Shown: in pieces, positions 5,755 through 61,170 of the stretch | How positions within the stretch are numbered: the stretch's first letter is position 1 | Layout of the letters: each line of letters begins with the position of its first letter | From: Polaromonas glacialis | Lineage (GTDB): Bacteria > Pseudomonadota > Gammaproteobacteria > Burkholderiales > Burkholderiaceae_C | Direction: 5' to 3' | Assembly: GCF_000709345.1 (NCBI RefSeq) | Contig: NZ_KL448323.1 | Coordinates: forward strand, 124,001-188,000 | Length of the DNA: 64,000 bases | Position numbers and translations under genes: made by a program | The notes under the pieces: model-generated | The model's input: only the letters and a program-made list of their open reading frames with translations | What the model was told of the DNA's origin: nothing | Databases searched by the model: none

Positions 5755-8478
5755 TCAATGGCCCAGGGCGCGCGTGACCACTTCGTGCGTGTCTTTGCTC
5801 AGGTCGGTGCGGGCGGCAACGCGGGCAATCGCCTGGTACGCCTGGCTGCGGTAGGGCTCGGCCAGCTTGCTCCAGCGGTCCAGCGCGCGCGCCAGCCGGG
5901 CGGCGACTTGCGGATTGAGGGCGTCGAGTTCGACCACGCGTTCGCACCAGAAGGCGTAGCCGGCGCCGTCAAGCCGGTGAAAGCCCGCCGGGTTGCCCTG
6001 GCAGAAGGTGCTGACGACGCTGCGCGCGCGGTTCGGGTTTTTCAGGCTGAAGTCGGCATGCTTCATGAGCTGCCTGGTCGCCGGCAGGATGTTGCCGCCG
6101 CGATCGGGCGCGCCGGTCTGCAGGCTGAACCACTTGTCGATGACCAACGCCTCGTCCTTGAACATGGCGTGGAACATGGCCAGCGCCTGCGCGGCCAGCG
6201 GATGGCTGCTGGACACCAGGGCGGCCAGGGCGTTGAAGCGGTCGGTCATGTTGCCGGCGTCCTTGAAACGCTGCAGCGTCTTGCCCGGCCACACGGTGTC
6301 GCCAGTTTCCCGCGCGGCCAGGCAGAGGTGTGTCAGCGCCATGCCGGCCAGCGCGCGGCGGCCGCTGGACACCGGGTCGGGCGTGTAGGCGCCGGTGTCG
6401 TGATTCGCTTCGTATACCGCTTCCCAGTCGGCCTGGAGCGCGCTGGCGAGCTGCTGGCGCATGGCTTCGCGCACGGCGTGGATGTGCTGCGGATCGACCA
6501 CGTCGAGCTGCTCGGCCAGATAGGTTTCGGATGGCAGCGTCAGCACCAGGTCCTTGAAGGCGGAATCGAGCGTCGGGTGGCGCAGGATCTCGCGCATGGC
6601 GTCTAAATAAGCATCATTTAGCACGTTTGCGCATGCTGCGACTGCATCACTAGCTATTTTTTTAATAGCGATAATAGCGCTGTTGACCGCCAGGCGCTGG
6701 CCGGCTTCCCAGCGGTTGAAGGGGTCGCTGTCGTGCGCCAGCAGATGCAGCAGTTGGGAATCCCGGTAGTCGAACTCCAGCACGACGGGCGCGGTGAAGC
6801 CGCGAAGAATGGACGGCACCGGTTCGGCGTCGAGGTTGACAAAGGTGAAGCTTTCGCTTGCCTGCGCCAGCACGACGGTGCGCGTTCCTGCGGCAGCAGC
6901 GGTTTCGCCGTCCAGTTGCAGCGGCACATCCTGGCCGTCCACGCCGAGCAGGCCAAGGCCGACCGGAATCACGAACGGCTCCTTGACCGGCTGTCCCGGC
7001 GTGGGCCAGCAGGTTTGCGACAGCGTCAGGGTGTAGCTGCGGGCGGCCGCGTCGTACAGGCCCTGCGCTTCCAGTCGCGGTGTGCCGGCCTGGCTGTACC
7101 AGCGCTTGAACTGCGGCAGCAGGCGCGCCAGATCCGACGCCGGATTGGCATCGGCAATGGCCTGCGCAAAATCGTCGCAGGTCACGGCCTGGCCGTCGTG
7201 GCGTTCGAAGTAGAGCGTCATGCCCTTGGCAAAACCCTGGCGGCCCACCAGCGTCTGCATCATGCGGACGACTTCGGCGCCTTTTTCGTAGATCGTGACG
7301 GTGTAGAAATTGCTGATCTCGATGTAGCTGTCTGGCCGCACCGGATGCGCCATCGGGCCGGCGTCCTCGGGGAACTGGGCGGTGCGCAGCACGCGAACGT
7401 CCTCGATGCGCTTGACGGCTCTAGCTGAAGGCTGGTCGCACAGGTCCTGGCTGAATTCCTGGTCGCGAAACACCGTCAGGCCTTCCTTCAGGCTGAGCTG
7501 GAACCAGTCGCGGCAGGTGATGCGGTTGCCGGTCCAGTTGTGAAAATACTCGTGGCCGACGACGCTTTCGATGTTCGAAAAATCAATGTCGGTGGCCGTC
7601 GCCTGGTTGGCCAGCACGTACTTGGTGTTGAAGATGTTCAGGCCCTTGTTTTCCATCGCGCCCATGTTGAAGTCGCTGGTGGCGACAATCATGAAGCGTT
7701 CAAGATCCAGCGGCAAGCCGAAGCGCGCCTCGTCCCAGGCGACCGAATGCATCAGCGAGACCATGGCGTGCTCGGTCTTGTCGAGGTCGCCGGGCCGTAC
7801 ATAGACCTGCAGCAGGTGCTCCTTGCCGGCGCGCGTGGTGATGCGCTGCTCCCGCGCCACCAGCTGGCCGGCCACCAGCGCAAACAGGTAGCTCGGCTTG
7901 CGGTGCGGATCGACCCATTTGGCGAAATGCCGCGCGCCGTTCGGACCATCGTCGAGCGGGCCGTGCGCCACCAGGTTTCCGTTGGACAGCAGCACCGGGT
8001 ATTTCGCCTTGTCGGCGCGCAGCGTGACGGTGTAGCTGGCCATCACGTCCGGGCGGTCGAGGAAATAGGTGATGCGCCGGAAGCCTTCGGCTTCGCACTG
8101 GGTGAAGAACGAGTCGTTGCTGACGTACAGGCCCATCAGCTTGGTGTTCCTGGACGGGCAGGTGGTGGTGAAGATTTCCAGCTCGAACGCATCGGGCAGG
8201 TCGCACAGCACCAGCTGGCCGCCTTCCATCTTGAACGACGTGCCCTGCCCGTTGACCTGCACGCGCGCCAGGTTGAGTTCCTCGCCGTCGAGCCGGAGCG
8301 GCTGCGCCGGCACGTCCGGGTTGCGGCGCAGCGTCATCTTGTTGAGCACGCGCGTTTTCGCCGGGTCCAGGTCAAAGCACAGATCAACGGTGTCGATCCA
8401 GTAGGCCGGGGCGGTGTAGTCGGCGCGGTTGATGACCACGGCGGCGCCGGGTCCTGTTCCGTCAAGCATTGGCAGCAT
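5755..8478 (-). CDS. pepN: Aminopeptidase N, M1 family zinc metallopeptidase
   Basis: 907 residues; removes N-terminal amino acids from peptides in the cytoplasm. The exopeptidase motif GAMEN is at about 273-277. The zinc site HEYFH (309-313) with Glu332 fits HExxH-x18-E. The DUF3458 and ARM-repeat regions follow. ATG 8478 is chosen over an upstream in-frame ATG at 8508 because GAGGAA precedes it at good spacing. About residues 600-625 come from an AT-rich type 1 repeat that appears to be an insertion between the beta-sandwich and the C-terminal helical domain. The gene sits between prfB and fbp, all on the minus strand. Confidence 0.96.
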   Translation of the reverse strand: MLPMLDGTGPGAAVVINRADYTAPAYWIDTVDLCFDLDPAKTRVLNKMTLRRNPDVPAQPLRLDGEELNLARVQVNGQGTSFKMEGGQLVLCDLPDAFELEIFTTTCPSRNTKLMGLYVSNDSFFTQCEAEGFRRITYFLDRPDVMASYTVTLRADKAKYPVLLSNGNLVAHGPLDDGPNGARHFAKWVDPHRKPSYLFALVAGQLVAREQRITTRAGKEHLLQVYVRPGDLDKTEHAMVSLMHSVAWDEARFGLPLDLERFMIVATSDFNMGAMENKGLNIFNTKYVLANQATATDIDFSNIESVVGHEYFHNWTGNRITCRDWFQLSLKEGLTVFRDQEFSQDLCDQPSARAVKRIEDVRVLRTAQFPEDAGPMAHPVRPDSYIEISNFYTVTIYEKGAEVVRMMQTLVGRQGFAKGMTLYFERHDGQAVTCDDFAQAIADANPASDLARLLPQFKRWYSQAGTPRLEAQGLYDAAARSYTLTLSQTCWPTPGQPVKEPFVIPVGLGLLGVDGQDVPLQLDGETAAAAGTRTVVLAQASESFTFVNLDAEPVPSILRGFTAPVVLEFDYRDSQLLHLLAHDSDPFNRWEAGQRLAVNSAIIAIKKIASDAVAACANVLNDAYLDAMREILRHPTLDSAFKDLVLTLPSETYLAEQLDVVDPQHIHAVREAMRQQLASALQADWEAVYEANHDTGAYTPDPVSSGRRALAGMALTHLCLAARETGDTVWPGKTLQRFKDAGNMTDRFNALAALVSSSHPLAAQALAMFHAMFKDEALVIDKWFSLQTGAPDRGGNILPATRQLMKHADFSLKNPNRARSVVSTFCQGNPAGFHRLDGAGYAFWCERVVELDALNPQVAARLARALDRWSKLAEPYRSQAYQAIARVAARTDLSKDTHEVVTRALGH
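6603..6680. repeat. Type 1 dispersed repeat inside pepN
   Basis: An AT-rich block in an otherwise GC-rich gene. On the minus strand it contains GCTATTAAAAAAATAGCT and GCATGCGCAA, the same building blocks as the copies near 29079, 43970, 44822, 47221, 59281 and 60597. It is translated in frame as roughly 26 residues (around IIAIKKIASDAVAACANV). Confidence 0.6.

Positions 8479-61170: not shown

Follow-up and report, generated by a model that had tools for sequence, protein, structure and literature searches.

A 64-kb stretch of the Polaromonas glacialis genome (contig NZ_KL448323.1; hereafter the window, C1:124001-188000 of a 5.28-Mb genome in 27 contigs, G000) carries copies of a DNA motif of approximately 66 bp that comprises two palindromes, is conserved in place both between genes and, through codon choice, inside them beyond the level of a neutral simulation, and is, with moderate confidence, the binding site of a putative Comamonadaceae DNA-binding protein. 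A sequence-only reading of the window had listed eight positions as one family of inserted repeats; all eight are among the nine family matches returned by nhmmer in the window at E<0.01, which bears out the grouping, and a repeat grouping of the window clusters seven of the eight unprompted. The commonest 14-mer in 980 kb of the genome is the motif's ATAGCTGCTTGCGC, with 24 occurrences, and, as a control for chance, the profile found nothing at E<0.1 in 314 kb taken from four relatives that lack a model match. The closest named relatives of the WaaA encoded in the window are Polaromonas records.

The oriented core of the motif reads TTTT..AAA..GGCCTTTTGCGCA-N9-TGCGCAAGCAGCTAT-N7-RTAGCA, with information content that starts at position -65 and stops near +4, and contains the palindromes TTGCGCA-N9-TGCGCAA and GCTAT-N7-ATAGC. 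From the left, it consists of a T-tract, an AAA-tract 10 bp on, GGCC, and a second T-tract 10 bp on that runs into TTGCGCA; to the right of this lie a variable 9-base loop, TGCGCAA, GC, AGCTAT, a 7-base AT-rich loop, RTAGC, and a short A-tract. The GC content of the motif is 0.42-0.48, against 0.55-0.68 in sampled stretches of the genome. The perfect 9-bp stem previously noticed at 47221 is confirmed as GCTTGCGCA-N9-TGCGCAAGC. The full unit measures approximately 66 bp, where the same reading had given approximately 50-75 bp, and a minority of copies reach approximately 150 bp with additional small palindromes; 29 of the 215 matches to a longer profile span at least 75% of that profile (E up to 1; some sites fall in two loci).

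Conservation of the motif was assessed between G000 and one other species, G024, over approximately 200 kb that align at 80-92% identity and are largely collinear. The 73 G000 copies in 390 kb include 36 with both flanks aligned, of which 32 are present in both genomes, three are missing as a block and one falls in a spacer of greater length and gives no match; the other 37 have no alignable flank. In the direction from G024 to G000, 33 copies are present, one site has no match, one lies in a longer spacer and 22 lack a flank. Among the shared copies, the motif positions that match the consensus are kept at 227/245 intergenic and 341/351 in-gene positions, and all motif positions, matching or not, at 240/276 and 385/414. 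The loops of the same copies are kept at 112/180 intergenic and 193/270 in-gene positions, and so drift like their flanks or faster (945/1440 intergenic, or 66% identity, and 1736/2160 in gene). At four-fold synonymous sites, 57/60 are kept in the motif, 65/95 in the rest of the element and 646/844 in the gene flanks (motif against gene flanks, Fisher p 3e-4). A neutral simulation at the flank rate leaves a mean of 4 and at most 8 of 32 copies detectable in 40 replicates, and at half the flank rate a mean of 16 and at most 20, whereas 32/32 were observed, or 32/33 when the longer-spacer site is counted as a miss. We conclude that the motif sequence itself is maintained; the cause would be either selection or a comparable drive, for example biased uptake.

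Inside genes, the motif can be written by codon choice alone. CoaBC sequences from 30 genera were divided into those from motif-rich genomes (at least 37 pattern matches; 17 genomes) and those from motif-poor genomes (at most 19; 13 genomes). GCT-N9-RTAGC occurs at one place in 10/17 motif-rich and 0/13 motif-poor genomes (p 0.001), where it encodes the segment A-[TSH]-[IV]-F-[IV]-A; motif-poor genomes mostly encode the same residues through other codons (GCC, GTC and ATC, for example), and the length of the segment is identical in 29 of the 30 rows. The sequence-only reading had proposed that the same residues in orthologues from distant genera would speak against insertion, and for CoaBC this is what was found, so that insertion is not borne out there. 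PriA behaves similarly, with GCT-N9-RTAGC in 8/13 motif-rich and 0/9 motif-poor genomes (p 0.006; 8 of 30 loci were dropped as the anchor was not found), the G000 copy having a degenerate left half and a preceding linker of variable length. In pepN, the Ala codon of the motif is the sole Ala column with T as the main third base (17/28 sequences) among 376 four-fold columns, and pepN from three genomes without a model match (G005, G027 and G040) encodes a similar peptide with different codons. Coding in place is thus settled for CoaBC, with PriA in support, although the direction of change is not polarised. Single sites are dispensable, because the motif is missing from CoaBC in 7 of the 17 motif-rich genomes and from pepN in G025.

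The sequence-only reading had proposed a covariance model, a search of related genomes, and counts of copies per genome and of the in-gene fraction. Matches to the covariance model occur in 45 of 61 genomes of the genus and in 69 of 200 from the family, representing 54 of 141 genera. A class-level sample of 185, which includes almost no further members of the family, yields the G000 genome only. Copies per genome were counted by a pattern search, in which a site ending in ATAGCT can score on both strands; the numbers given by the covariance model level off at a scoring cap (82 per genome in the genus sample and 25 in the family sample). Of 299 family genomes, 168 contain the exact pattern AGCTAT-N7-RTAGC, against control counts that rarely reach 10; the number of matches, added up over the two strands, runs from tens to about 500 in some genomes, and most others have nearly none. 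Sister species differ sharply, with 222, 1 and 302 pattern matches in g72, 259, 4 and 108 in g121, and 174, 207 and 9 in g89. The motif is confined to the family in the samples taken, and can be abundant or nearly absent within one genus. A joint loss of all copies would point to a trans-acting factor.

An iterative profile search of the G000 genome, started from the grouped copies and covering the window plus 40 sampled stretches (860 kb), gave 126 matches, or 122 after double matches of one site were merged, with 61 on each strand. A replichore strand bias, seemingly indicated by 8/9 window matches on the + strand, was rejected on this count. In total, 178 copies were found in 1,145,859 bp (155 per Mb), which extrapolates to approximately 820 per genome, and these are split equally between strands (90/88). 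A simple gene finder trained on the G000 genome, with a coding fraction of 0.89, places 95 copies between genes, 54 within them and 29 across gene ends. Intergenic copies lie at a median of 38 bp from a stop codon; the 92 with genes on both sides are over-represented in convergent regions (35 copies, in 18% of the intergenic length) and under-represented in divergent ones (8 copies, in 26%). Spacing is more even than random (coefficient of variation 0.705 against 0.92 in a gene-aware control, with 0.3% of 4000 trials as low); in G024, a plain random control reaches the observed spacing in 4%. Inside genes, orientation is balanced (26 same, 28 opposite to the gene), and 22/26 same-orientation and 25/28 opposite-orientation copies each use one frame (47/54 in total), a bias that is partly a condition of detection because the preferred frames are those without stops.

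Genes that carry the motif include MutL, PriA, UvrC, DnaX, GatA, CoaBC, a relative of the CCA-adding enzyme, LolA and a ComEC relative, and some N-terminal copies, in our own reading, encode signal-peptide-like segments. In a ComEC-type competence gene (L052:14016-16484), the motif copy occupies residues 394-415. By our own classification, genome-maintenance genes account for 7 of the 50 carriers looked at (52 in all) and about 4-7 of 40 length-matched controls, and an enrichment of carriers for genome maintenance was rejected as not clearly above these controls.

Given two palindromes with conserved half-sites, left tracts approximately one helical turn apart, no strand preference, avoidance of divergent regions and even spacing, the putative protein would be a dimeric DNA-binding protein with a chromosome-wide role. 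Such a protein would recognise the motif as double-stranded DNA and thereby maintain it. Point mutation would be the main source of new sites, at places where the encoded protein or the intergenic DNA can accept the change, and the long form of approximately 150 bp can also be gained or lost as a block. Loss of the recogniser would explain why some species of a genus have almost no copies at all, and its role may lie in chromosome organisation or maintenance. Several points weigh against this account: no binding protein for the motif was found; the 37 copies without alignable flank stand outside the conservation test, which is based on a single species pair; the family itself supplied the definition of the conserved positions, with the loops and flanks of the same copies as the control; some copies appear or vanish as blocks; and the 7 motif-rich genomes without the motif in CoaBC are joined by G025, the pepN of which lacks it despite 80 model matches in that genome.

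A more specific proposal, which we put a little short of an even chance, is that the motif is a 66-bp two-palindrome chromosomal address, with approximately 800 evenly spread sites per genome that would be put into housekeeping genes by synonymous codons, read by one putative protein, and erased genome-wide on the loss of that protein. If true, this address would greatly exceed in length the similar signals that are written in place across genomes, namely uptake sequences and HIP1. The findings turn repeats in genes into a testable system, with hundreds of conserved sites, sister species that have the motif or nearly lack it, and footprints in the codons of individual sites, and the contrast within genera should let the recogniser be found by comparison of gene content. 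They also carry a caution, that a DNA signal can determine codon choice and loop sequences in proteins of the Comamonadaceae.

Part of the motif appears in earlier work. Tong, Schliekelman and Mrazek (2017; PMC5217627) reported ATAGCT(N)22CAAAAG in Polaromonas naphthalenivorans CJ2 as a potential novel motif with 125 copies, of which 101 are intergenic, 18 are in genes and 34 lie between convergent genes, often approximately 50 bp from genes. This pair has the same sequence and spacing as the present motif on the reverse strand, but, in the available part of the main text, concerns two hexamers in one genome without an analysis of function, conservation or family-wide occurrence. Allowing up to two mismatches, the pair matches the window 7 times, 6 of them at family copies, where 2.2 matches are expected and 2 of 100 shuffles reach 7. 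The same paper describes GCTTAT(N)5AAGCG in Acidovorax ebreus, which may be related to the motif. No report of its conservation, in-place coding or family-wide spread was found in the open-licence literature, as judged from listings.

The motif may alternatively be a DNA-uptake signal as in Pasteurellaceae and Neisseriaceae, where preferential uptake and recombination would drive it into permissive places by point mutation, an explanation that we consider unlikely but take seriously. It fits nearly as well with regard to evolution by point mutation, which is described for uptake sequences (see also PMC2346458). Uptake signal sequences (USS, DUS) likewise occur in hundreds of copies on both strands with an intergenic excess and are described as built in place, and the present motif shares point mutation in place (CoaBC, PriA), a large intergenic share (95/178) and equal strands; low-GC stretches are also poorer in copies, with 1.1 against 3.5 per 20 kb (10 and 47 stretches). 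However, uptake sequences are only about 10-12 bp long, are not palindromic and have a demonstrated uptake function, unlike the 66-bp motif with its two palindromes, and the carriers show no clear excess of genome-maintenance genes. Furthermore, comEC is present in 190 of 200 family genomes, including motif-free ones, and was not found in G102, which has 47 pattern matches; since comEC does not track the motif, competence was rejected as the missing factor. HIP1 of cyanobacteria is also palindromic, iterated genome-wide and nearly absent in some lineages, but, according to the portion of PMC4390886 available, it is 8 bp long and tied to methyltransferases.

It is less likely still, and on the whole improbable, that the copies descend from a non-autonomous mobile element of the kind of Rickettsia palindromic elements (RPE) or miniature inverted-repeat transposable elements (MITE), inserted in frame and now decaying. 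Two long forms, at C1:121552 and at window 47178-47325, are missing as a block in G024, with sizes of 154 bp, cleanly absent there, and about 180 bp, and would suit such an element, as would the extra residues in WaaA, GatA and the CCA enzyme. However, block presence or absence was seen for three intergenic copies only, two of them long forms, no target duplication was obvious by eye at one clean empty site in G024, and the number of copies present in both genomes is far above neutral decay. The long form of the window has no match on plasmids or phages, and a larger carrier of either kind was rejected.

The length of the carrier proteins speaks more directly to insertion. Insertion of 66 bp would add 22 residues, whereas the extra length in eight carrier genes is 0 to about 13 residues and never 22, so that the inserted-repeat reading of the in-gene copies mostly fails. 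Compared with solved homologues, CoaBC is longer by 0 residues, PriA by 0-1, PepN by 4 (6 against a relative without a model match), WaaC by 5, the CCA-type enzyme by 8 and GatA by 9; an oxidoreductase subunit (L192:4438-6027) exceeds a G013 relative by 3, and the figure for WaaA is about 13. Comparison with relatives without a model match was possible for 2 of the 54 carriers, and the alignments of MutL and a radical-SAM carrier were unusable at the motif. The in-place coding of CoaBC, in particular, speaks against a mobile element as the general account. In WaaA, where 67 of 80 loci gave the site, the loop is 15-23 residues long in 17 loci, 31-44 in 37 and 24-28 in 13, the last left unassigned, and the 22 motif matches at the site all lie in long loops and in one orientation. 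Labelling rows as bearing an insert, crudely by loop length, requires 12 changes on the 67-row waaA tree, which fits either a single early origin with repeated erosion or multiple origins. As to the earlier suggestion that the repeats are a source of new protein segments, the motif may contribute to new loops in WaaA, GatA and the CCA enzyme, which do have extra residues.

Known repeat families were also compared with the motif. Rickettsia palindromic elements, in the available description (PMC10969869), are palindromic repeats read in frame inside genes, and a recurrent peptide in an open frame is also seen here (the 47/54 copies, with the same condition of detection); they are set apart, by description, as insertions of approximately 150 bp, whereas the present motif adds no or limited length. 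The beta-proteobacterial repeat element (BRE) is likewise found in Comamonadaceae with some copies inside coding sequences, but is described, in the part of PMC3110155 available, as having 69% GC on average in Bordetella, a length of 75-91 bp and an often tandem arrangement, which sets it apart by description from the motif at 42-48% GC. Repetitive extragenic palindromes (REP) with their RAYT transposases are also dispersed palindromes, and a Y1 transposase-like gene is present in 60 of 61 genus genomes, in most as one copy; it is, however, present whatever the motif number, and 20 neighbourhoods of such genes contain no motif copy at E<0.01 and two marginal matches at E 0.02, on which grounds RAYT was rejected as a mobiliser. 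The only RAYT-like Y1 transposase gene found in the G000 genome is L046 18123-18449 (C1:2518123-2518449).

A role as an RNA hairpin, for instance a terminator or a site of processing, would fit the placement near stop codons and between convergent genes but is very unlikely, given that no compensatory changes were seen (87.0% of cells paired against 88.0% in shuffles; 2 double-change pairs against 3.8), that alifold predicts 2 pairs, that both orientations are equally used inside genes, and that no window copy matches Rfam at gathering scores. Conserved RNA structure was rejected in the absence of covariation, the named pairs being slightly rarer than in shuffled columns, and Rfam returned only tRNAs from the window.

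Turning to the individual copies in the window, the sequence-only reading had placed five in coding sequence with the frame kept open. Four lie wholly in genes, and the frame does stay open through each: in pepN, a gene on the - strand (6605-6670, + strand, residues 603-624; nhmmer match +6624, 29.8 bits), in ada-alkA, also on the - strand (44802-44867, +, residues 230-251; +44813, 30.7 bits), in waaC (59261-59326, +, residues 167-188; +59273, 34.7 bits) and in waaA (60589-60654, +, residues 253-274; +60601, 47.5 bits). The fifth (43963-44028, +; +43981, 41.1 bits) instead overlaps the 3' end of ada-alkA (open reading frame 44015-45556). The intergenic copies lie at 17029-17094 (-; -17083, 34.0 bits), beside the gene at 17147-17737 and common to G024, at 29069-29134 (+; +29080, 37.5 bits), and at 47202-47267 (+; +47213, 46.5 bits). 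The last forms the core of the long form of approximately 150 bp at 47178-47325 (+; 98.9 bits with the long profile), at which, by alignment, the motif is present in G019. The ninth match, absent from the earlier list, is a weak copy inside a SPOR-domain gene (30697-31623) at 31045-31110 (+; +31070, 18.9 bits) and is common to G024 and G019.

Other repeats were observed alongside the motif. A GC-rich dispersed repeat (CCCCCTCGGGGGGCAGCG...) is present in the window at 20959-21058, 26852-26951 and 58385-58433, is among the commonest 14-mers of the genome, and may be the published BRE. PriA (L050, C1:2917882-2919999) contains at residues ~330-390 an in-frame segment with 19 more matches elsewhere in the genome, one of which (window 20966-21184) falls at the GC-rich repeat of 20959-21058; this segment is possibly a BRE-like repeat translated inside PriA, and as such a candidate for a true insertion. 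A tRNA array at window 36403-37502 consists of three copies of a 300-nt unit at 358-nt spacing that are 93-94% identical and contain two tRNA genes each, and an inverted repeat at window 58648-58737 has 37-nt arms that are 84% complementary and 16 nt apart.
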